From a bacterium (GTDB lineage Bacteria; Planctomycetota; JADGBV01), in contig JAHFOS010000024.1 in the NCBI GenBank assembly GCA_023261545.1, positions 1-35,605 of the forward strand: 35,605 bases of DNA, given 5' to 3'. This document shows, one piece after another, positions 6,016-34,376 of the stretch (position 1 is its first letter; every line of letters begins with the position of its first letter). The position numbers and the translations under genes are program-made. The notes below the pieces were generated by a model. The model had not been told where the DNA came from, did no database searches, and saw only the letters and a program-made list of their open reading frames with translations.

Positions 6016-6957
6016 ATGGCTGTTCGCGAAGAAGATATTTTTCAGGCCGCGGATGAACTGAATGCCGAAGGTGTGACACCTTCGGCGATCTCCATCCGAG
6101 AAATTCTAAAAACTGGTAGCCTGGGGACCATTCAAAAACACCTCAAGGCCTGGAGGGAGAAATCCGTAACGCCGAGCGCCCAGCCTCCTCCCGCGGCTTC
6201 AGTTTTGGAAGTGTCCCAAAAATGGGCAGCCCAGGTCTGGGGGACCGCCTGGGCACAAGCCCGCCAGGAGATGGACGCCAGGATCCATGAAATACAAGCC
6301 AGCCTGAAGCAGAGCCAAGAGGATGCCGAGGCCGCGTGGAAGGAGGTGGAGCGTTTTGAGGAAGATGAAAAAAAATGGGGGGTGAAACTTGATGATGAGC
6401 GCCGACTGCGAGAAGAAGGAGCGGCCAATCAACATGCCCTCGAAGAGAAAATAGCGGAACTGGGCAAGGAAAACGCCGAGCGTGAAAAGGCCAGGGAGCA
6501 ACTCGCCCGCGAGCTGGCGCTGATGGAAGAAAAGACGCTGGCGTTGCACCAGAAGACCGAGCGCTTGCGGCGCGAACTGGATGAGGAACACCGCCGAGCC
6601 GTCGAGGCGGAGCGCATGGCGGCGGCCAACCACGGCAGGCTCGAGGAATTGCAACGCCTCACGGAAGAAGCCAGGGCCGAAGCGCGGTCGGAGCGCGAGC
6701 GCTGCGAGGAACTCCAAGCGCGCATCGCCGTATCCGAGGAGCGCGCCCATGAGGCGGAACGGCGCCGCGAAGAGGCGCTGGAGAACGTCGCGGATTTTCG
6801 GGAGCGCCTGGCCGCCACGCGTTTCTCCATGGAAGAACTCGAGCGCTGCCGCCGGGAGCGCGATGCGCTGAACCTGCGCATGGATGAGTTGATGCGGGCG
6901 TGGATTCATTCGCGCCCCGCTGCCGGGACGGGCGAAGCCGCGAAGGAAAACACGTAA
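6016..6957 (+). CDS. KfrA-like DNA-binding coiled-coil protein
   Basis: The 313-residue protein has an N-terminal KfrA/replication-region DNA-binding module (residues 1-50: VREEDIFQAADELNAEGVTPSAISIREILKTGSLGTIQKHLKAW, a winged or helix-turn-helix-like fold), a short Pro/Ala linker, and then a continuous charged coiled coil from about residue 85 to 295, rich in Glu, Arg and Ala heptads. KfrA of plasmid RK2 has this architecture, autoregulates through an inverted repeat and aids plasmid maintenance. Here no plasmid genes are nearby, so a chromosomal or integrated-element role is possible. The promoter palindrome fits autoregulation. Start ATG 6016 gives the expected MAVREEDIF N-terminus. Confidence 0.75.
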   Translation: MAVREEDIFQAADELNAEGVTPSAISIREILKTGSLGTIQKHLKAWREKSVTPSAQPPPAASVLEVSQKWAAQVWGTAWAQARQEMDARIHEIQASLKQSQEDAEAAWKEVERFEEDEKKWGVKLDDERRLREEGAANQHALEEKIAELGKENAEREKAREQLARELALMEEKTLALHQKTERLRRELDEEHRRAVEAERMAAANHGRLEELQRLTEEARAEARSERERCEELQARIAVSEERAHEAERRREEALENVADFRERLAATRFSMEELERCRRERDALNLRMDELMRAWIHSRPAAGTGEAAKENT

Positions 6958-19091: not shown

Positions 19092-20146
19092 CGCCCCAGC
19101 GCCTGGTTCACGAGGTCCTTGAGTCGTTCGGCTTCGGGGCGCGCGCAAACCAGGGTTCCGGCCCGGCCGCAGATCACGACGCTGTTCTCGATGCCGGCGG
19201 CCACCAGGGGCGGCTGTCCATCTTCGACGATGACGAGGTTGCCGCGCGTGTCGCGACGCACGGCATGGCCCAATAGGGCATTGCCCTGCGCGTCCTTGGG
19301 AAGCATTTCGATCAGCGCCGCCCAGCCGCCCACGTCGCTCCAGTCGAAGCGCGCCTCCAGCAGTACGGCGTTGGTGATTTTTTCCATGAGGCCGTGATCG
19401 ATGGAAATACGGGTCAAGGGCTCGAAAAGCCGGCGCGCTTCCGCGAGCCAATCCGGAGCGCCAGGCCCCGCCGCGAGCGCGCGCGCCATGGCGGCGTGGG
19501 CCGGCAGGTGGAGCTCCAGGGCTTCCAGCAGCTTTTCGGGGCGCCACAGAAACATCCCGGCGTTCCAGGCGTAACGGCCCGAGTCGAGGAATCCCTGCGC
19601 ACGACGGCGGTCTGGTTTCTCCACGAAAGATTGCAGCCGATAACACCCAGGGCGGTCCAACGCCTCGCCTTTTTCGAGATAACCGTAGCTCTCAGCCGGA
19701 CTGGAGGGCGGGATGGCGATGGTGACGAAATGGCCTTCGGCGGCTAGCGCGGCGGCGTCGCTCAGAGTGGCCCGGAATCCGGCGACGTCGCGGATGCCGT
19801 GGTCCGAGGGCAATACGGCCATCACCGATCCGGGCGCGCGCCGCGCGATAACGCCGGCGGCCAGGGCGATAGCCGCCGCGGTATCGCGCAACAACGGTTC
19901 GAGGATGATGCGGTCGGGGGCGATGGCGGGGGCCTGCTCGCGCACCAGGGCGGCATAGCGATCCTGGGTGAGCACGAAGGTATCCGTTGGGGCCACAAGA
20001 TCCTCCAGGCGCCGCAGCGTGAGTTGCAGCAGCGTCCCTGCGCCGGTGAGGTTGAGGAACTGCTTGGGGCGTTCCGGCGTGCTCAGGGGCCAGAAGCGCA
20101 GCCCCTCTCCGCCCGCCAGCACGGCGGCGACGATGCGCGGTTTCAT
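19088..20146 (-). CDS. manC: Mannose-1-phosphate guanylyltransferase
   Basis: The 352-residue enzyme makes GDP-mannose from mannose-1-phosphate and GTP, a precursor for surface polysaccharides. AAVLAGGEGLRFWPLSTPERPKQFL is the nucleotidyltransferase signature, with the Arg/Lys residues that activate GTP; ILEPLLRDTAAAIALAA, VLPSDHGI, SYGYLEKGE, FVEKPD, YAWNAGMFLWR and DWSDVGGW are the further family motifs. It lacks the C-terminal isomerase domain of bifunctional AlgA/ManC, as its length shows. It overlaps the recombinase gene upstream and the Sel1 gene downstream by ATGA, hence is translationally coupled. Confidence 0.9.
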   Translation of the reverse strand: MKPRIVAAVLAGGEGLRFWPLSTPERPKQFLNLTGAGTLLQLTLRRLEDLVAPTDTFVLTQDRYAALVREQAPAIAPDRIILEPLLRDTAAAIALAAGVIARRAPGSVMAVLPSDHGIRDVAGFRATLSDAAALAAEGHFVTIAIPPSSPAESYGYLEKGEALDRPGCYRLQSFVEKPDRRRAQGFLDSGRYAWNAGMFLWRPEKLLEALELHLPAHAAMARALAAGPGAPDWLAEARRLFEPLTRISIDHGLMEKITNAVLLEARFDWSDVGGWAALIEMLPKDAQGNALLGHAVRRDTRGNLVIVEDGQPPLVAAGIENSVVICGRAGTLVCARPEAERLKDLVNQALGR

Positions 20147-21057
20147 CCGGCCAGGGCCCGGGTGTCGCGGGCGCGCGGATGGCTGCGGCGGTAAACCTCG
20201 GCCATCAGGGCCGGGGTCACGCGCGTGTAGATCTGCGTGGTGCTGAGGTGCGCGTGGCCGAGCAACTCTTGCACCGAGCGCAGGTCGGCGCCGTTTTCGA
20301 TGAGGTGGGTGGCGAAGGAGTGGCGGAAGGTGTGCGGCCCCACGTCACCGAAGCCGGCGGCGCTGGCGCGGGCGGCGGTGAGCTTGAACATGCCGCGCAC
20401 GGTGAGCGCCAGGCCGCGATGGTTCACGAAGACGCGCTCATGGCGGTTCTGCGCCAGGGCGTTCCTGAAAGGCAGGTAGCGGGCCAGCGCGGCGCTGGCG
20501 GGCGGGGTGAGCAGCACCAGCCTTTCCTTGGCGCGTTTGCCGAGCACGCGGGCAGCGCCGCCTTCGAGGTCGAGATCAGCAACGGTGAGCCCCGCCGCTT
20601 CCGAGACACGGCAGCCGGTGCTGTAGAGATATTCCAGCAACGCCTTATCGCGCAGTCCGATGAAATCCTCCGTGGGGATGGAATCCAGCAGTCTTTCCAT
20701 CTCGTTCACGCTCAGCACGCGCGGCAGGTGCTTGGGCAACCTGGCGCTTTCGATCTCTTTGAGGTGTCCCACCGCTTCTCCCAGGCGTTCTTCGAGGAAG
20801 CCGAAATGGCAGCGCAGCGCCGCGGCGGCGCGGGCCAGGGTGTGGCGTCCCTGGCCGTTCTCGCAGCGCGAGGCCAGGAAGGCGCGCACGTCCGCCGGTT
20901 TGAGGGCGGCGTAGCCCCCCATCGCGAGTTTTTCCGCCGCGAAGCCCTCCCAGAGCCGCACGGTTTGCAGGTAAGCCCTGAGCGAGTGGGGGCTGAGCTT
21001 GCGCTCGTGCTGAAGGAAATCCCGGAACAGATCCGCGGCGGGTTCCATGCCAACCAT
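20143..21057 (-). CDS. Tyrosine recombinase XerC/XerD-like
   Basis: The 304-residue product has an N-terminal SAM-like core-binding domain (FRDFLQHERKLSPHSLRAYLQTVRLWEGF) and a catalytic domain with the Arg in STGCRVSEAAGL, Lys in GKRAKERLVLL, HTFRHSFATHL and LGHAHLSTTQIYTRV. The nucleophile is that final Tyr. It should resolve chromosome dimers at a dif site with its partner. Its place in a housekeeping operon between pyrF and manC argues for a chromosomal Xer protein rather than a phage or island integrase; XerC versus XerD cannot be told by eye. Both ATG 21057 and ATG 21048 (MEPAADLF) are possible starts. Confidence 0.87.
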   Translation of the reverse strand: MVGMEPAADLFRDFLQHERKLSPHSLRAYLQTVRLWEGFAAEKLAMGGYAALKPADVRAFLASRCENGQGRHTLARAAAALRCHFGFLEERLGEAVGHLKEIESARLPKHLPRVLSVNEMERLLDSIPTEDFIGLRDKALLEYLYSTGCRVSEAAGLTVADLDLEGGAARVLGKRAKERLVLLTPPASAALARYLPFRNALAQNRHERVFVNHRGLALTVRGMFKLTAARASAAGFGDVGPHTFRHSFATHLIENGADLRSVQELLGHAHLSTTQIYTRVTPALMAEVYRRSHPRARDTRALAG

Positions 21058-30231: not shown

Positions 30232-30447
30232 GTAAGCGTTCAGCCCAGGATTCGCTCCTTCGCATTTCTGTGCCAGCAGCCAGGCCCGTTCGTGCTGTGC
30301 TTGTCGAAGCATGAACGGGCCGTGCCGCCGGCGTTGCCCGCCCCCTTCGACAGCGCTCAGGACAGGCTTCAACAAGCTCATCCCCCAAAACGGGGGATAA
30401 AGGGCGAACGGAACCCTGTCGTGGCACCAAAAGGTCTGAACGCTTAC
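30232..30447 (-). mobile_element. MITE-like element, family B copy 1 (inverted orientation)
   Basis: Terminal inverted repeats GTAAGCGTTCAG (30232-30243) and CTGAACGCTTAC (30436-30447) bound a 216-bp palindrome-rich unit containing CTTCGACAGCGCTCAGGACA and CCCCC...GGGGG hairpins. Two full copies (31288, 32195) and one remnant (33884) lie inside the tRNA array. It has no ORF of its own and would need a transposase in trans. Confidence 0.7.
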
Positions 30448-30566: not shown

Positions 30567-30594
30567 TTGACAAAACAGAAAAGTTGTATAGTAT
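30567..30594 (+). promoter_or_regulatory. Probable promoter of the tRNA array
   Basis: A consensus -35 TTGACA (30567-30572) is followed after 16 bp by TAGTAT (30589-30594), or after 14 bp by TATAGT. It is the best sigma-70 promoter in the AT-rich stretch ahead of the array and faces it, 227 bp upstream of the first tRNA. Confidence 0.55.
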
Positions 30595-30763: not shown

Positions 30764-30804
30764 AGCCCTAGGATCACGCGCCACCAAAGGCGGGTTCTAG
30801 GGCT
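30764..30804 (+). other. Long hairpin just before the first tRNA
   Basis: A perfect 8-bp stem AGCCCTAG/CTAGGGCT encloses a second small stem (CGCC/GGCG). It ends 16 nt before tRNA-Tyr and may serve RNA processing or attenuation; there is no T-run. Confidence 0.4.
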
Positions 30805-30820
30805 GGCTAAGTTTCTCCAA

Positions 30821-30906
30821 GCGTCCGTGGCAGAGCGGCAATTGCACCTGGCTGTAGACCAGGCGAGCCGGCAGGCTCTTCGGAGGTCCGATTCCTTCCG
30901 GGCGCA
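30821..30906 (+). tRNA. tRNA-Tyr (GTA)
   Basis: Acceptor GCGTCCG/CGGGCGC, anticodon loop CTGTAGA on a CCTGG/CCAGG stem and a long variable arm as expected for bacterial Tyr. A73, no encoded CCA. T-loop TCCGATT has C instead of T at position 55. First gene of the array. Confidence 0.92.
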
Positions 30907-30977
30907 TGATGAAGGGCCGACGGGATTTCCGTCCCCTGGCTCCGAGTGGTTCATTGACAATTTAAAGACTTCAAGCA

Positions 30978-31004
30978 GCAGGGCGTGGAACTTTCACGTC
31001 CTGC
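30978..31004 (+). other. Hairpin between tRNA-Tyr and tRNA-Glu
   Basis: A 10-bp stem (GCAGGGCGTG/CACGTCCTGC, one G-T pair) with a 7-nt loop ends 4 nt before tRNA-Glu. It may direct processing of the precursor. It does not fit a tRNA arm. Confidence 0.4.
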
Positions 31005-31008
31005 CGTT

Positions 31009-31079
31009 GCCCCAGTCGTCTAATGGCAGGATGGAACCTTTTCAAGGATCCGACCAGGGTTCGATTCCCTGCTGGGGTA
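31009..31079 (+). tRNA. tRNA-Glu (TTC)
   Basis: Acceptor GCCCCAG/CTGGGGT with a terminal G-U pair, anticodon loop TTTTCAA, normal T-loop TTCGATT, A73. The anticodon stem has one A-A mismatch. Its last 23 nt plus the two following bases are duplicated at 31176-31200. Confidence 0.88.
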
Positions 31080-31175
31080 TTATGTATATGTAGACAACCG
31101 AACCCTGAACCCCTCCAACTTCCCCTGGAAGGGGAGGCGCTCTCTCACCCCCCTAACTCCCCCTGGCGGGGGATT

Positions 31176-31200
31176 GGGTTCGATTCCCTGCTGGGGTATT
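31176..31200 (+). repeat. Exact duplicate of the tRNA-Glu 3' end
   Basis: These 25 nt are identical to 31057-31081 and contain the T-arm and 3' acceptor strand of tRNA-Glu. The 94 bp between the copies hold GC-rich hairpins (CTTCCCC..GGGGAG; CCCCC..GGGGG). It looks like the scar of an insertion or unequal recombination at the tRNA 3' end. Confidence 0.75.
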
Positions 31201-31204
31201 TTTC

Positions 31205-31276
31205 GGCTCTGCGGTGTATCCGGTAGCACGCCTCGTTGAAGCTGAGGAAGTCCTGGTTCGACTCCAGGCGGAGCCA
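31205..31276 (+). tRNA. tRNA-Phe (GAA)
   Basis: Acceptor GGCTCTG/CGGAGCC, anticodon loop TTGAAGC on a CCTCG/TGAGG stem, T-loop TTCGACT, A73, no CCA. Confidence 0.9.
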
Positions 31277-31287
31277 TTCAAGTTCTC

Positions 31288-31498
31288 GTAAGCGTTCACC
31301 CATGGTACAGAACCTCCGCCGTTCGCCCTTTATCCCCCGTTTTGGGGGATGAGCCTGTCGAAGCCTGTCCTGAGCGCTGTCGAAGGGGGCGTCTGGCTCT
31401 GACGGCACGGCCCGTTCATGCTTCGACGGGCTCAGCACGAACGGACATGGCTGTTGGTGCCGCAATGCGAAGGCGCGAATCACATACTGAACGCTTAC
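31288..31498 (+). mobile_element. MITE-like element, family B copy 2
   Basis: Terminal repeats GTAAGCGTTCA (31288-31298) and TGAACGCTTAC (31488-31498) bound a 211-bp unit with the same internal hairpins as the copy at 30232, in opposite orientation. It separates tRNA-Phe from tRNA-Lys. Confidence 0.7.
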
Positions 31499-31549
31499 AA
31501 GTTATCATTGAGGAAATTCATGAAATCAGCGCGTGTCGAGCACCGGCAC

Positions 31550-31621
31550 GGACCCACAGCTTTAACAGGGAAGCGCCGTCCTTTTAAGTCGGAGATGAAG
31601 GTGCAAGTCCTTCTGGGTTCA
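31550..31621 (+). tRNA. tRNA-Lys (TTT)
   Basis: Acceptor GGACCCA/TGGGTTC, D-stem GCTT/AAGC, anticodon loop CTTTTAA, A73. Odd points: a T-T mismatch in the anticodon stem, C at position 8, and T-loop TGCAAGT (G55 in place of T55). Confidence 0.82.
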
Positions 31622-31631
31622 TCTTTTTTCT

Positions 31632-31705
31632 GGATCGGTAGCTCAGTCGGCAGCAGCGCCGGATTCTTAACCCGGAGGTCGTGGGATCATCGCCCACCCG
31701 ATCCA
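31632..31705 (+). tRNA. tRNA-Lys (CTT)
   Basis: Perfect acceptor GGATCGG/CCGATCC, D-stem GCTC..., anticodon loop TTCTTAA, A73. The last anticodon-stem pair is A-C and the T-loop ATCATCG lacks both T54 and A58. Confidence 0.82.
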
Positions 31706-31707
31706 CT

Positions 31708-31778
31708 GGCTCATTGGCGTAAAAGCAGCGCGCCGCTCTGTCGCAGCGGAGGCAGGGGAGCGTTACCCCTATGGGCCG
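31708..31778 (+). tRNA. tRNA-Asp (GTC)
   Basis: Acceptor GGCTCAT/ATGGGCC, perfect anticodon stem CCGCT/AGCGG with loop CTGTCGC, G73 as in Asp tRNAs. The T-loop AGCGTTA is non-canonical and the D-loop has no GG pair. Starts 2 nt after tRNA-Lys(CTT). Confidence 0.82.
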
Positions 31779-31782
31779 TCAT

Positions 31783-31856
31783 TCCTCGGGTACTCAAGCG
31801 GAGAAGAGGCGCGTCTGATGAGCGCGTAGATGCAGGTTCGAATCCTGCCCCGAGGA
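31783..31856 (+). tRNA. tRNA-Ile (GAT)
   Basis: Acceptor TCCTCGG/CCGAGGA, anticodon loop CTGATGA on CGCGT/GCGCG, T-arm GCAGG-TTCGAAT-CCTGC. T1-A72 with C73 is unusual for Ile, so charging identity is less certain than the anticodon. Confidence 0.8.
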
Positions 31857-31860
31857 CTAT

Positions 31861-31944
31861 CGGCCCTGAGCCGCCAGTCGTCTTATGAGCGATCCTCCTG
31901 AAACGGCGGACAGTCGGAGAGAGGTGCAAATCCTCCAGGGCCGA
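31861..31944 (+). tRNA. tRNA-like sequence, perhaps Ile (TAT)
   Basis: A perfect acceptor CGGCCCT/AGGGCCG and a T-arm with loop TGCAAAT are clear. The best 7-nt anticodon loop is CTTATGA (anticodon TAT) on GTCGT/GCGAT, but then only 9 nt replace the D-arm and a 26-nt region precedes the T-arm. An alternative weak stem would give GAA. Isotype unresolved; possibly a rearranged tRNA. Confidence 0.35.
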
Positions 31945-31948
31945 CCGA

Positions 31949-32032
31949 TGCTGGGTACCCGAACGGAAGCAGGGACCGCACTGTTAATGCGGCGGCGCAA
32001 GCCCGTTGTTGGTTCGAATCCAACCCCAGCAG
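31949..32032 (+). tRNA. tRNA-Asn (GTT) with long variable arm
   Basis: Perfect acceptor TGCTGGG/CCCAGCA, T1-A72 and G73 as in Asn tRNAs, anticodon loop CTGTTAA on CCGCA/TGCGG. The variable region is 15 nt with its own stem, normally confined to Leu, Ser and Tyr tRNAs. D-arm CCC/GGG is also of that class. Confidence 0.82.
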
Positions 32033-32046
32033 TTTTCAATGACGTT

Positions 32047-32112
32047 GCCGGTGTCATGGCGATACGCCCGTCCTGTAAACGGGGAATGGGGGTTCGATTC
32101 CCCCCATCGGCT
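32047..32112 (+). tRNA. Short tRNA-Thr (TGT)
   Basis: Acceptor GCCGGTG/CATCGGC, anticodon stem CCCGT/ACGGG, T-arm GGGGG-TTCGATT-CCCCC, T73. Only 66 nt: the D region is 13 nt and forms no good stem. The loop CCTGTAA has C at position 33. Confidence 0.75.
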
Positions 32113-32116
32113 TAGC

Positions 32117-32188
32117 GCTTCCATAGCTCAGCGGCAGAGCGTCGCCTTCGTAAGGCGAAGGTCGCAGGCTCGAAACCTGCTGGGAGCT
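32117..32188 (+). tRNA. tRNA-Thr (CGT)
   Basis: Acceptor GCTTCCA/TGGGAGC, D-stem GCTC/GAGC, anticodon loop TTCGTAA on TCGCC/GGCGA, T73. T-loop CTCGAAA has C54. Confidence 0.92.
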
Positions 32189-32194
32189 TTTGCA

Positions 32195-32398
32195 GTAATA
32201 GTTCAGACACGCCGAGAAGCCGTTCGCCCTTTATCCCCCGCTTCGGGGGATGAGCTTGTCGAAGCCTGTCCTGAGCGCTGTCGAAGGGGATGATTGGCGG
32301 GGCGTCACGGCTCGTTCATGCTTCGACAAGCTCAGCACGAACGGGCCTGCCTGCTGGTGTCGCAATGCGAAGGCGTGATTCATGGGATGAACTTTTAC
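32195..32398 (+). mobile_element. MITE-like element, family B copy 3
   Basis: Ends GTAATAGTTCA and TGAACTTTTAC (one mismatch as inverted repeats) bound 204 bp with the same hairpins (CCCCCG..CGGGGG; GCTTCGACAAGCTCAGCACG) as the copies at 30232 and 31288. It separates tRNA-Thr(CGT) from tRNA-Arg(ACG). Confidence 0.68.
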
Positions 32399-32408
32399 CT
32401 TGTGTAGA

Positions 32409-32481
32409 GCCTTGGTCGTTCAACCTGGAAGGATGCCGGTCTACGAAACCGGCGATGCTGGTTCGAATCCAGCCCGAGGCA
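32409..32481 (+). tRNA. tRNA-Arg (ACG)
   Basis: Acceptor GCCTTGG/CCGAGGC, anticodon loop CTACGAA on CCGGT/ACCGG, T-arm GCTGG-TTCGAAT-CCAGC, A73. A34 would need TadA deamination to inosine. Confidence 0.93.
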
Positions 32482-32511
32482 TGGCGATGAATTTTCGGCT
32501 TATTTTCGTAT

Positions 32512-32580
32512 CCCGGTGCCATCAGGCGATGATCTCCGCCTCATACGCGGGGAGAGGAGGATCGATACCTTCCACCGGGA
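32512..32580 (+). tRNA. tRNA-Met-type (CAT)
   Basis: Perfect acceptor CCCGGTG/CACCGGG, anticodon loop CTCATAC on TCCGC/GCGGG, A73. C1-G72 is paired and the three G-C initiator pairs are absent, so it is an elongator Met or a lysidine-modified Ile tRNA. D-loop only 5 nt; T-loop ATCGATA. Confidence 0.78.
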
Positions 32581-32584
32581 CTTG

Positions 32585-32655
32585 GCGCCTGTAGTTCAAC
32601 GGCAGAACATCGGTTTTCCAAACCGATCACCCGAGTCCGACTCCCGGCGGGCGCT
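32585..32655 (+). tRNA. tRNA-Gly (TCC)
   Basis: Acceptor GCGCCTG/CGGGCGC, D-stem GTTC/GAAC, anticodon loop TTTCCAA on TCGGT/ACCGA, T73 as in Gly. One A-C mismatch in the T-stem and T-loop TCCGACT. Confidence 0.9.
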
Positions 32656-32661
32656 CTTATG

Positions 32662-32735
32662 GCCGCAGTATCCCAAGCGAGCAGAGGAACCCGTCTCAGA
32701 AACGGGTCATGTGTGACCGAGTCTCACCTGCGGCA
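32662..32735 (+). tRNA. tRNA-Leu (CAG) with short variable region
   Basis: Perfect acceptor GCCGCAG/CTGCGGC, anticodon loop CTCAGAA on CCCGT/ACGGG, A73. The variable region is 4 nt, whereas bacterial tRNA-Leu normally has a long arm. T-loop ACCGAGT and one T-stem mismatch. Confidence 0.82.
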
Positions 32736-32740
32736 TTCCT

Positions 32741-32812
32741 GCACCCGTCGTTCAACCGGAAGGACGGGACCCTCCGAAGGTCCGGATCGCCGTTCAAGTC
32801 GGCGCGAGTGCA
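32741..32812 (+). tRNA. tRNA-Arg (CCG)
   Basis: Acceptor GCACCCG/CGAGTGC with a C-A mismatch at 5-68, perfect anticodon stem GGACC/GGTCC with loop CTCCGAA, T-arm CGCCG-TTCAAGT-CGGCG, A73. Confidence 0.88.
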
Positions 32813-32816
32813 TTCC

Positions 32817-32893
32817 GCCGCGGTACGCAAATCAGGCAAAGCGGCCAGGTCGAGAACCTGGTGATTTTGCGAGTTCGACTCTCGCCCACGGCA
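32817..32893 (+). tRNA. tRNA-Leu (GAG) with short variable region
   Basis: Acceptor GCCGCGG/CCACGGC with a C-A mismatch, anticodon stem CCAGG/CCTGG with loop TCGAGAA (C at position 33), T-arm GCGAG-TTCGACT-CTCGC, A73. Variable region 7 nt, short for Leu. Confidence 0.82.
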
Positions 32894-32898
32894 TTTTC

Positions 32899-32969
32899 GC
32901 GGGTCTGATGTAATGGCAGCATAACCGGCTCCAACCCGGTTCGTGTGGGTTCAAGTCCTACGGCCCGTG
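32899..32969 (+). tRNA. tRNA-Trp (CCA)
   Basis: Acceptor GCGGGTC/GGCCCGT (G1-U72), perfect anticodon stem ACCGG/CCGGT with loop CTCCAAC, T-loop TTCAAGT, G73 as in Trp. Confidence 0.88.
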
Positions 32970-32974
32970 CTAAG

Positions 32975-33137
32975 GAGCTTGTCCATAAATAGCATTCTGG
33001 CTTCGTCCGAGCCTAGCCGTCGGCATGCTGCGTTGCGCTGCATCGGCGATATGCTGCGATATCGCCTGCTTCGCGCGCCTTGCCTGCCTTGGCTTTGCTC
33101 GGCCTCGGGCCGACGCAGCTTATTTATGGATAAGCTC
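32975..33137. mobile_element. 163-bp inverted-repeat element (MITE-like, family C)
   Basis: Near-perfect 17-bp terminal repeats (GAGCTTGTCCATAAATA and its complement with one mismatch) bound a non-coding 163-bp unit that contains an inner hairpin CGGCGATA/TATCGCC. It separates tRNA-Trp from tRNA-Arg(TCT). A non-autonomous transposable element is likeliest. Confidence 0.65.
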
Positions 33138-33141
33138 AAAC

Positions 33142-33214
33142 GCTCCGATCATTCAACGGAACAGGATGGCGCTCTTCTAAGGCGCTCATGAAGGTTCGAA
33201 TCCTTCTCGGAGCA
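33142..33214 (+). tRNA. tRNA-Arg (TCT)
   Basis: Perfect acceptor GCTCCGA/TCGGAGC, anticodon loop CTTCTAA on GCGCT/GGCGC, T-arm GAAGG-TTCGAAT-CCTTC, A73. Confidence 0.92.
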
Positions 33215-33219
33215 TCAGC

Positions 33220-33294
33220 GCCGGAGTGATGCAATCGGGCAGACATCGGAGCTTCAAAAGCTCTGTCCTGAGAGTTCGAGTCTCTCCTCCGGTA
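33220..33294 (+). tRNA. tRNA-Leu (CAA) with short variable region
   Basis: Acceptor GCCGGAG/CTCCGGT (G1-U72), anticodon loop TTCAAAA on GGAGC/GCTCT, T-arm GAGAG-TTCGAGT-CTCTC, A73. Variable region 5 nt, again short for Leu. Confidence 0.83.
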
Positions 33295-33300
33295 TTTCCA

Positions 33301-33371
33301 GCGGCCATGTTGAAATGGCATCAAGCGACCTTGCCAAGGTCGAGTCCCGAGTCCGATTCTCGGTGGCCGCT
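33301..33371 (+). tRNA. tRNA-Gly (GCC)
   Basis: Perfect acceptor GCGGCCA/TGGCCGC, anticodon loop TTGCCAA on CGACC/GGTCG, T73. T-loop TCCGATT. Confidence 0.92.
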
Positions 33372-33377
33372 CTCGCT

Positions 33378-33449
33378 GTGGTGCGTAGCTCAATAGCAGA
33401 GCGCTGGATTGTGAATCCAGAGGCACGGGAGCATAACCCGTCGTACCAC
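33378..33449 (+). tRNA. tRNA-His (GTG)
   Basis: An extra G at -1 faces C73, the hallmark of His tRNA; acceptor TGGTGCG/CGTACCA, D-stem GCTC/GAGC, anticodon loop TTGTGAA on CTGGA/TCCAG. The T-loop AGCATAA is non-canonical. Confidence 0.9.
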
Positions 33450-33453
33450 CTGT

Positions 33454-33539
33454 GGAGGTCGTCCGGCCAGACGAGGAGCCTGCCCTGAAAGCAGGTAGGG
33501 CCCGCAAGGGCCTTGCAGGTGCGAGTCCTGCGACCTCCG
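33454..33539 (+). tRNA. tRNA-Ser (TGA)
   Basis: Perfect acceptor GGAGGTC/GACCTCC, G73, long variable arm (GGGCCCGCAAGGGCC), anticodon stem CCTGC/GCAGG with loop CCTGAAA: C33 precedes the TGA anticodon. T-loop TGCGAGT. Confidence 0.88.
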
Positions 33540-33545
33540 TTCACT

Positions 33546-33618
33546 GGGGCCGAAGCTCATTTGGCAGAGCGCCCGCCTTGCAAGCGGGAGGCAGAGAGTT
33601 CGAAGCTCTCCGGCTCCA
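33546..33618 (+). tRNA. tRNA-Ala (TGC)
   Basis: Acceptor GGGGCCG/CGGCTCC, D-stem GCTC/GAGC, perfect anticodon stem CCCGC/GCGGG with loop CTTGCAA, A73. The Ala-specific G3-U70 pair is present. Confidence 0.95.
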
Positions 33619-33622
33619 CTTT

Positions 33623-33689
33623 CAGCCTGTAGTGTTCAGCAGCAGCACACGAATCTCGGGGAGACGGTGCGAAGCCGTCTCCAGGCTGG
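33623..33689 (+). tRNA. tRNA-like remnant without anticodon arm
   Basis: Acceptor-like CAGCCTG/CAGGCTG, a D-like stem GTGT/ACAC and a T-arm with a 7-bp stem GAGACGG/CCGTCTC and loop TGCGAAG are visible in 67 nt. Only about 11 nt remain where an anticodon arm should be. It is probably a deletion derivative; a novel small structured RNA is the alternative. Confidence 0.35.
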
Positions 33690-33696
33690 CTCGTAT

Positions 33697-33770
33697 CGGA
33701 GTGTAGCTCAGCTTGGCAGAGCGCCCGCCCTGGGAGCGGGAGATCGGTGGTCCGAATCCACCCACTCCGA
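33697..33770 (+). tRNA. tRNA-Pro (TGG)
   Basis: C1-G72 and A73 as in Pro tRNAs, acceptor CGGAGTG/CACTCCG, D-stem GCTC/GAGC, anticodon stem CCCGC/GCGGG with loop CCTGGGA: C33 instead of T33. T-loop TCCGAAT. Confidence 0.9.
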
Positions 33771-33778
33771 CTGATGAC

Positions 33779-33849
33779 GATCCCATAGCCAAGTGGCAAG
33801 GCGGCCGGCTGCAACCCGGCGATCGGAGGTTCGATTCCTCCTGGGGTCT
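33779..33849 (+). tRNA. tRNA-Cys (GCA)
   Basis: Acceptor GATCCCA/TGGGGTC, perfect anticodon stem GCCGG/CCGGC with loop CTGCAAC, T-arm GGAGG-TTCGATT-CCTCC, T73 as in Cys. Confidence 0.93.
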
Positions 33850-33883
33850 TCCCGGTCTGTCCTTTTAACAGGGGCGGTTCCTT

Positions 33884-33969
33884 GTAATAGTTTAATCATG
33901 ACACGAGACTCCCAGCCGTTCGCCCTTTATCCCCAGTTTTTGGGGATGAGCCTGTCGAAGGGTGAACGG
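33884..33969 (+). mobile_element. Truncated family B element
   Basis: It begins with a degenerate end (GTAATAGTTTA) like copy 3 and keeps the first hairpins (ATCCCCAGTTTTTGGGGAT, CCTGTCGAAG), but the right half is gone. CCGTTCGCCC and GGGTGAACGG now pair as an outer stem. Confidence 0.5.
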
Positions 33970-33980
33970 CGGTGTGTTCC

Positions 33981-34051
33981 GGTCCGTTCGTTCAATGGCA
34001 GGACCGCAGTCTTACAAACTGCTGACGGGGGTTCGATTCCCTCACGGACCA
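33981..34051 (+). tRNA. tRNA-Val (TAC)
   Basis: Perfect acceptor GGTCCGT/ACGGACC, anticodon loop CTTACAA on GCAGT/ACTGC, T-loop TTCGATT, A73. Confidence 0.93.
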
Positions 34052-34096
34052 CTTGGCGCAACCGCCTCATCCCGCCCGGCGGGGAGATTTTCACGC

Positions 34097-34168
34097 TCCC
34101 GAGTGGTGCAACAGGCAGCATGGCCGGCTTTGAACCGGCTGATGCACGTTCAACCCGTGCCTCGGGAA
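34097..34168 (+). tRNA. tRNA-Gln (TTG)
   Basis: Perfect acceptor TCCCGAG/CTCGGGA with the U1-A72 pair typical of Gln, anticodon loop CTTTGAA on GCCGG/CCGGC, T-loop TTCAACC, A73. Confidence 0.92.
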
Positions 34169-34172
34169 TATG

Positions 34173-34245
34173 GCTGCCGTACCTCAAGGGGCAGAGGGCC
34201 TCCTTGGTAAGGAGGAAGTTGCGGGTTCGACACCCGCCGGCAGCT
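34173..34245 (+). tRNA. tRNA-Thr (GGT)
   Basis: Perfect acceptor GCTGCCG/CGGCAGC, D-stem CCTC/GAGG, anticodon loop TTGGTAA on CCTCC/GGAGG, T-loop TTCGACA. T73 agrees with the other two Thr tRNAs here. Confidence 0.93.
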
Positions 34246-34252
34246 CTTGTCG

Positions 34253-34324
34253 GTCCTTGTAGCTCAAGGGAAGAGCGTCCCACTCCTAAGGGGAAGGCTG
34301 GGTGTTCAAATCACCCCAAGGACA
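34253..34324 (+). tRNA. tRNA-Arg (CCT)
   Basis: Perfect acceptor GTCCTTG/CAAGGAC, D-stem GCTC/GAGC, anticodon loop CTCCTAA, A73. The innermost anticodon-stem pair is A-G. Last gene of the array. Confidence 0.9.
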
Positions 34325-34343
34325 TTAAAATCTTCACACGGGT

Positions 34344-34376
34344 GCACGATCCAGCAAGACAGAAACCCAATCGTGC
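34344..34376 (+). other. Hairpin after the tRNA array
   Basis: A 7-bp stem GCACGAT/ATCGTGC with a 19-nt loop lies 20 nt after the last tRNA. It may stop or protect the transcript, but no T-run follows. Confidence 0.3.

Follow-up and report, generated by a model that had tools for sequence, protein, structure and literature searches.

An array of 29 redundant tRNA genes in a probable planctomycete, with an apparent change of the tRNA elbow that recurs in viral tRNA sets

Large supplementary sets of tRNA genes are known from several settings. Many Planctomycetes carry "degenerate tRNA gene clusters", described in 2016 as partly degraded, maybe dispensable and thought to be horizontally acquired (PMC4807772). 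The tRNA array units of Mycobacterium and of its phages and plasmids reach 26-37 tRNAs on plasmids and cover 19-20 amino acids; the mycobacterial arrays are redundant with the chromosomal set, and an anti-defence role has been suggested for them (PMC5966550, PMC12803027). The trn operon of Anabaena sp. PCC 7120 is plasmid-borne, holds 26 tRNA genes beside 48 housekeeping ones, and is silent until induced by translational stress or translation inhibitors, TrcR repressing it together with rtcB (PMC10272220). In jumbo phages, tRNAs are accompanied by RtcB ligases and TROVE proteins, a combination read as RNA repair (PMC7824862). Here we describe a tRNA array at positions 30821-34324 of contig JAHFOS010000024.1 (assembly GCA_023261545.1), which we analysed at its full length of 35,605 nucleotides and call the window.

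We interpret this array as a chromosomal, working auxiliary tRNA set of a phage-like kind, held in reserve against the cleavage, inhibition or shortage of housekeeping tRNAs, and put the probability of this reading at about 50%. What carries it is the gene content, the redundancy, the kept structure and discriminator bases, the covariation of bases at the elbow and the occurrence of the same elbow in viral tRNA sets.

ARAGORN found 27 tRNA genes in the array, on the plus strand only, and the Rfam tRNA model gave 24 matches at its gathering score and 26 at E ≤ 1, among them Lys(TTT), which ARAGORN misses. A stem scanner written for this analysis, whose score depends on the four stems and, among loop letters, on T33 only, returned 28 cloverleaves on the plus strand of 30800-34350 and none on the minus strand, against one (plus) in the first 15 kb of flank; it adds Met(CAT) and misses Thr(TGT). 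Taken together, the methods give 29 tRNAs in 3.5 kb on one strand, plus two tRNA-like sequences. All 20 amino acids are represented: Tyr, Glu, Phe, Lys (two), Asp, Ile, Asn, Thr (three), Arg (four), Met, Gly (two), Leu (three), Trp, His, Ser, Ala, Pro, Cys, Val and Gln. None of the 29 (0/29, read from the sequence) has an encoded CCA after the discriminator base. The original prediction, made by reading the window alone, had listed these same genes, and ARAGORN, Rfam, the stem scanner and our own reading bear the list out gene by gene, as they do its count of 29 tRNAs and two tRNA-like sequences on one strand, for 20 amino acids and without CCA. The members are given below; each was found by both ARAGORN and the stem scanner unless other evidence is named.

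30821-30906 (+): tRNA-Tyr(GTA), long variable arm, T-loop TCCGATT (C55)
31008-31080 (+): tRNA-Glu(TTC)
31205-31276 (+): tRNA-Phe(GAA)
31550-31621 (+): tRNA-Lys(TTT), T-loop TGCAAGT (G55), D-loop TAACAGGG; Rfam (48 bits) and stem scanner
31632-31706 (+): tRNA-Lys(CTT), T-loop ATCATCG (A54, T58)
31707-31780 (+): tRNA-Asp(GTC), T-loop AGCGTTA (G55, A54, T58), D-loop AAAAGCA (A18)
31784-31857 (+): tRNA-Ile(GAT)
about 31861-31944 (+): tRNA-like 1, GTGC in the T-arm, anticodon arm not clear; read by eye
31949-32032 (+): tRNA-Asn(GTT), long variable arm (15)
32041-32112 (+): tRNA-Thr(TGT), acceptor stem with 5/7 pairs; ARAGORN, and Rfam at E ≤ 1
32117-32188 (+): tRNA-Thr(CGT), T-loop CTCGAAA
32409-32481 (+): tRNA-Arg(ACG)
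32512-32580 (+): tRNA-Met(CAT), 5-nt D-loop, T-loop ATCGATA; stem scanner (score 19.8), not in the ARAGORN or Rfam lists
32585-32656 (+): tRNA-Gly(TCC), C55
32662-32735 (+): tRNA-Leu(CAG), short variable arm (4), T-loop ACCGAGT
32740-32813 (+): tRNA-Arg(CCG); also Rfam at E ≤ 1
32817-32893 (+): tRNA-Leu(GAG), variable arm of 7
32899-32970 (+): tRNA-Trp(CCA)
33142-33214 (+): tRNA-Arg(TCT)
33220-33294 (+): tRNA-Leu(CAA), short variable arm (5)
33301-33372 (+): tRNA-Gly(GCC), C55
33379-33450 (+): tRNA-His(GTG), T-loop AGCATAA (G55, A54, T58), D-loop AATAGCA (A18)
33454-33539 (+): tRNA-Ser(TGA), long variable arm, T-loop TGCGAGT (G55), D-loop GGCCAGACGA; also Rfam tRNA-Sec model
33546-33619 (+): tRNA-Ala(TGC), G3-T70
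about 33623-33689 (+): tRNA-like 2, acceptor, D and T arms (T-loop TGCGAAG); read by eye
33697-33771 (+): tRNA-Pro(TGG), C55
33779-33849 (+): tRNA-Cys(GCA)
33981-34052 (+): tRNA-Val(TAC)
34097-34168 (+): tRNA-Gln(TTG)
34173-34246 (+): tRNA-Thr(GGT)
34253-34324 (+): tRNA-Arg(CCT)

The sole Rfam model that matches the Ser gene is tRNA-Sec, at 38.5 bits and below that model's cut-off of 47, so that the gene does not qualify as tRNA-Sec. The fold of tRNA-like 1 (z −1.1) is in itself no evidence; tRNA-like 2 (z −2.2) is too short to hold an anticodon arm. Two adjacent tRNAs at 34188-34311 match YrlA, a Y RNA-like family, at 32 bits (cut-off 69), probably through mere tRNA likeness.

In the whole genome the tRNA model matches 71 times, 23 of these in the array and 48 outside, and ARAGORN run around the outside matches typed 48 distinct genes, with each of the 20 amino acids represented. 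Since the housekeeping genes already form a complete set, the array is a second, redundant one. A second, canonical set elsewhere in the genome was what the original prediction had proposed to look for in support of an auxiliary role, and these 48 matches, which span the 20 amino acids, are that set. "Auxiliary" is a fair word for a redundant array; the view that the array is exceptional does not hold, as arrays with as many as 32 tRNAs exist in other genomes of the host phylum and clusters in planctomycetes have been on record since 2016 (PMC4807772). Of 392 host-phylum genomes, 99 have three T-arms in a run at least once, some of these runs being ordinary clusters or coding repeats. When 28 array members were compared with the scanned non-array tRNAs of the host, the best identity was 56-78% and the best match had the same isotype in 13 of 28 cases; therefore, the array tRNAs are not recent copies of host genes. 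Their nearest relative was an array tRNA in 17 cases, a viral tRNA in six and a non-array tRNA in five, out of pools of unequal size (other arrays of the phylum supplied 555 tRNAs, viral loci 577 and non-array loci 74). That the array as a whole is homologous to one from a phage or plasmid was also considered and rejected, since no record covers 80% of it (best phage record 4%, plasmids 2%).

The many deviant tRNAs noticed at the outset are real, but they are not degenerate: stems, discriminators and elbow bases have been kept in coordination. The discriminator base fits host usage for the isotype in 29/29 array tRNAs (A and G both counted as agreeing for Arg and Glu), against a mean of 13.7 and a maximum of 23 in 20,000 shuffles. 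Ala keeps G3-T70, and His keeps the G at −1 together with C73. SerRS and TyrRS require a long variable arm and bacterial LeuRS hardly does. This fits what we found in 583 array tRNAs of 40 loci (window included), where a long variable arm is present in 28/28 Ser and 12/12 Tyr but only 16/54 Leu tRNAs; Leu tRNAs with a variable arm of 5-7 also occur in three of five actinobacterial arrays. Stem pairs were compared among four species of one genus, pairing genes by unique anticodon and using the acceptor, T and anticodon stems of scanner-passing genes only. Summed over the six pairwise comparisons, 177 pairs had changed on both sides and 55 on one side while still pairing, 37 were broken in one species and four in both, and 1240 were the same; the scanner favours paired stems, so that decayed orthologues may be missed in these counts. 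For one species with 28 genes, orthologues of 24 were recovered in a neighbour species.

These results bear on the proposal, made for planctomycete clusters, that such a cluster is horizontally acquired, has no present function and is slowly decaying, which we regard as rather unlikely here. Clusters in many Planctomycetes are indeed described as partly degraded and maybe dispensable (PMC4807772), two members of the present array are broken, repeats have entered it in at least three places, and the sole same-family genome (69% complete) shows no cluster. Against decay stand the fit of all 29 discriminators, the passing of 28/29 tRNAs in the stem scan, the excess of compensatory change over breakage in another genus and the covariation of elbow bases across genomes. 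Since stems, discriminators and elbow pairs have been kept, we do not make decay our main reading.

The most orderly of the deviations concerns the elbow. Pseudouridine 55 has been termed universally conserved in tRNA (elbow review, PMC4810234). In 12 of the 28 scanned window tRNAs the T-loop does not start with TTC. In a discovery set of 299 tRNAs, taken from the window and from the largest cluster of each of 20 loci, G55 occurred with AG in the D-loop 18 times and with GG once, and T55 with AG twice and with GG 240 times (Fisher, 1.3e-24); this test excluded AGG D-loops (6 G55, 23 T55), four mixed or empty T55 loops and five C55. A hold-out set of 284 tRNAs from 19 further loci, chosen by T-arm clustering before the D-loop analysis, gave six and one for G55 and one and 250 for T55 (1.3e-10). 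Excluded here were four G55 (AGG 1, mixed 1, none 2), 20 T55 and two C55; clusters of at least three were used, and L232 gave none. The hold-out is partly dependent, with two genomes (G380 and G204) of one genus and within-genus orthologues counted repeatedly. Because related sequences share ancestry, fewer independent changes lie behind the data than the p-values suggest, and more weight belongs to the distribution over genera and anticodons: G55 is present in 36 of the 583 array tRNAs, at 16 loci and with 19 anticodons. Among 7-nt D-loops, in which position 18 is unambiguous, G55 goes with A18 in 13 of 14 tRNAs (the other has T18) and T55 with G18 in 125 of 125. Host tRNAs outside the array have T55 in 47/47 and G55 in 0/47 scanned.

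The T-loop has the form U-G-N-R-A in 32 of the 36 G55 tRNAs; among the window's four, it is present in Lys(TTT) and Ser, and His and Asp carry A54 and T58 instead. In the UGNRA loops of riboswitch RNA, a U-A pair closes the loop and the G commonly binds an A from outside (PMC2258182). Judged from covariation, the G18-U55 contact would appear to be replaced in part of the set by A18-G55, with the T-loop in UGNRA form. No report of an A18/G55 elbow was found in the open-access papers searched, which is no proof of novelty, since most subscription journals lie outside that search.

Our first reading was that this elbow is special to the host phylum, and it was dropped after scans of viral contigs. 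Patterns for A18/G55 and G18/G55 were checked on known loci, where the first was found in L090, L189, L190 and L194, with a chance match in L213, and the second in none. Three patterns were then run on viral contigs and matched at least 120 stretches for A18/G55, seven for G18/G55 and 28 for A18/T55; among the matches listed, 55/124, 2/7 and 7/28, respectively, passed the cloverleaf scanner. Forty of the 69 failing A18/G55 matches listed were inspected: many belong to one tRNA-Gly-like family and some are chance. From the matches listed we selected 51 viral loci for containing a confirmed A18/G55 tRNA. Their 479 other hits have G55 in 261 cases, T55 in 210, C55 in six and A55 in two, and those with 7-nt D-loops divide into 77 A18-G55, 49 G18-T55 and two G18-C55, with no crossed combination.

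Mixed viral sets exist (1/28 G55 in L243, for example). Others are wholly or almost wholly G55, as in L329 (29/29), L322 (28/28) and L345 (35/37), which are among ten viral loci chosen for their high G55 share. In L329, AG is present in 29/29 D-loops and GG in none, and the T-loops AGCAT and AGCGT resemble those of His and Asp in the window; genes for RtcB and an HNH protein lie beside this array, and a head protease, portal and endolysin further off. Viral loci overlap in content, L278 and L329 carrying the same genes. The HNH proteins of viral arrays and of host-phylum arrays are related (29-46% identity). We take the relation between the window array and phages to rest on a shared kind and a shared elbow, not on demonstrated descent; the window array may be of viral ancestry. 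As a separate observation, a tRNA-Gly(UCC)-like gene with A18/G55 and CCA after the discriminator recurs in viral loci (L251, L254, L256, L271 and others). It has an apparent 8-nt anticodon loop, TATTCCAA, and could be a frameshift-type or non-decoding tRNA.

With phage and plasmid arrays so close in kind and the elbow shared by phage contigs, it might be supposed that the array is anti-defence cargo of a mobile element or prophage that lies partly beyond the contig end. The array ends 1.3 kb from that end, and the contig also encodes a phage-integrase-family, XerC-like protein (20143-21057) and a KfrA_N protein (6016-6957, 24 kb from the array). However, the nearest genes are those of a leucine-rich-repeat protein kinase, a lactonase and a FecR-domain protein to the left and a sigma factor to the right; none of the 10 window proteins scanned is a plasmid, phage or element gene adjoining the array, the contig end cutting the right side. 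The integrase-family gene is 10 kb off, beside pyrF and near ssb, and reads as a chromosomal XerC, and the repeats of the array recur on four other contigs. We think mobile cargo improbable. The FecR protein was tried as a conserved neighbour and rejected, having no relative in the named genomes and a best match of 33% identity in the same-family genome.

A G55 T-loop is also found in staphylococcal wall-building glycine tRNAs. Part of the set could accordingly be imagined to work outside translation, donating amino acids to pathways that make cell wall, lipids or peptides, its altered elbow reducing use by the ribosome. Although a tRNA-like sequence too short for an anticodon arm (33623-33689) would suit such a role, G55 is spread too broadly for it, over 19 anticodons in the 583 array tRNAs and over whole viral sets, and we hold it to be very unlikely.

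The host assembly comprises 4.56 Mb in 288 contigs (91% complete, 4.3% contamination), of which the window is the entire contig C24. In an rpoB tree whose sample was without other PVC phyla, the host stands beside nine Planctomycetota rows (support 100) and outside them, on a long branch. Its rpoB is 51-55% identical to these nine and 44-47% to Bacteroidota; partial Nitrospirota and Mcinerneyibacterium matches reach 52% and 50%. The host is most likely a deep lineage of Planctomycetota as judged from this gene, and it is because of this placement that we call the other array-bearing genomes of its phylum planctomycete. So fragmented and slightly contaminated a bin raises the thought of an artefact, i.e., a mis-binned contig or tRNA-like noise, to which we assign hardly any weight. 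The array repeats match four other contigs of the bin, which speaks against mis-binning; similar arrays exist elsewhere in the phylum, and the other strand has no cloverleaf.

Besides its tRNA genes, the array region contains the following features:

30567-30594 (+): candidate sigma-70-like promoter TTGACA-16-TAGTAT before the first tRNA, 10/12 matches
30764-30804 (+): strong hairpin immediately ahead of the first tRNA; RNA folding energy −25.5 kcal/mol (z −4.3), 0/200 shuffles as good
31176-31200 (+): 25 nt identical to 31057-31081 at the Glu gene's 3′ end
31318-31498 (+): dispersed repeat, up to 180 nt

The candidate −10 box TAGTAT sits within TTGTATAGTATG. The hairpin is possibly a leader element or processing signal. 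The 25-nt Glu duplication flanks about 95 nt of C-rich DNA and looks like what a small insertion at the end of a tRNA gene would leave behind. Whole or partial copies of the dispersed repeat occur at 32219-32398 and 33915-33960 and, inverted, at 30232-30411 before the array, and it recurs on contigs C111, C184 and C186; a second repeat near 32975-33140 matches contig C212. Elsewhere in the phylum, RtcB is encoded in or near arrays L230 and L233 and Ro60/TROVE genes lie at L183, L184 and L193, a link to RNA repair. A family of about 270-aa proteins is found in or beside arrays (L182:9992-10792, L218 and L229:5374-6180), with no Pfam match in the two members scanned. A common promoter upstream of arrays was sought and rejected, as the best hexamer pairs vary.

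Several findings weigh against a working reserve set with a changed elbow. Promoter-like sites in the region number two, no better than chance (shuffle mean 1.5). The array anticodons cover no Ser AGY and no Leu UUA or CUA codons, and a reader for Ile AUA is missing too unless the CAT gene is an Ile tRNA; AGC is frequent in 13 window genes (20.6 per 1000), yet the array has no reader for it. Two of the 31 members are broken and one is weak (the Thr(TGT) acceptor stem). The selection test on stems rests on another genus, and no array-level match to the window array was found in the 59 relatives searched. Neither RtcB nor TROVE was found in the host genome (91% complete), and none was seen beside the array. 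As regards the elbow, G55 is present in few window tRNAs, four of the 28 scanned (Lys-TTT, Asp, His and Ser) and both tRNA-like sequences, and five of the 28 have C55. Two G55 tRNAs of the hold-out set have neither AG nor GG. Two loci outside both sets had one G55 tRNA each, with A18 in L209 and with G18 and C19 in L210 (L064/L210, another array of the phylum); neither strand of L212 reached three hits. A54-T58 in place of T54-A58 was found in 6/299 discovery tRNAs and 0/284 hold-out tRNAs. Finally, G55 was found in 0/108 tRNAs of six plasmid or phage arrays (five actinobacterial, one from a Pseudomonas phage; a seventh locus, L203, was skipped, neither of its strands reaching three hits), and the absence of G55 may thus be common among mobile arrays.

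If the array is a working reserve, we would expect it to be transcribed as one or a few long precursors, which RNase P and 3′ nucleases would cut and to which a host enzyme would add CCA; the tRNAs would then be charged by the host's own synthetases. We hypothesize that this type of set, shared by phages, plasmids and chromosomes of the phylum, is selected for structure and charging, the elbow being free to vary. Its most likely role would be to sustain protein synthesis through periods in which the housekeeping tRNAs run short, are inhibited or have been cut. We favour this role because of precedent, namely the induction of the Anabaena trn operon (PMC10272220) and the anti-defence function suspected for mycobacterial arrays (PMC12803027). 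The altered elbow and the loss of U55 may help the set escape from whatever attacks or modifies ordinary tRNAs.

A bolder idea, which we offer tentatively and with the odds somewhat against it, is that A18/G55 with a UGNRA T-loop and no pseudouridine 55 forms a second natural class of tRNA elbow, to which whole phage sets have been converted and of which the phylum's chromosomes hold a mixture. Such an elbow would hide a host-compatible set from host enzymes that read the elbow, e.g., tRNA-cutting defence nucleases. If this is true, the switch would amount to counter-defence at the level of the elbow, in a set still working with the host's ribosome and synthetases. Extra tRNA sets have so far been explained by codon usage or by anti-defence, and little separates the two. 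A covarying change at a highly conserved tRNA contact, present in extra sets and in 0/47 host tRNAs, would point to selection through a reader of the elbow, and A18 with G55 offers a simple sequence tag for finding such sets.

The trn operon of Anabaena differs from the window array in lying on a plasmid, in belonging to another phylum and in its known induction; the −10 box of that operon, where TrcR binds, is TAGTAT (PMC10272220), identical to the candidate −10 of the window, which may be chance. Unlike the tRNA sets of jumbo phages (PMC7824862), the window array has no adjoining repair gene. It resembles the tRNA array units in its density, the redundancy of its isotypes and its divergent sequences, and differs from the actinobacterial plasmid and phage arrays and the Pseudomonas phage locus in having G55 and in adjoining no plasmid or phage gene. 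With the planctomycete clusters it shares its nature as a large extra tRNA cluster, probably in the same phylum, but most of its members are intact. Several of those clusters include a single canonical Ile-UAU gene (PMC4807772); ARAGORN and the stem scanner found no TAT anticodon in the window array, and some related arrays have one (e.g., L182 and L185). An elbow change goes unmentioned in the cited part of that report (PMC4807772). The G55 T-loop is most like the UGNRA lonepair triloop, with its second-position G, an A from outside and a reverse-Hoogsteen-type U-A closing pair; the triloop was described for riboswitch RNA (PMC2258182), the array case being read from sequence covariation. The array type itself is thus known, and it is the orderly deviations, including the elbow switch, that look new.

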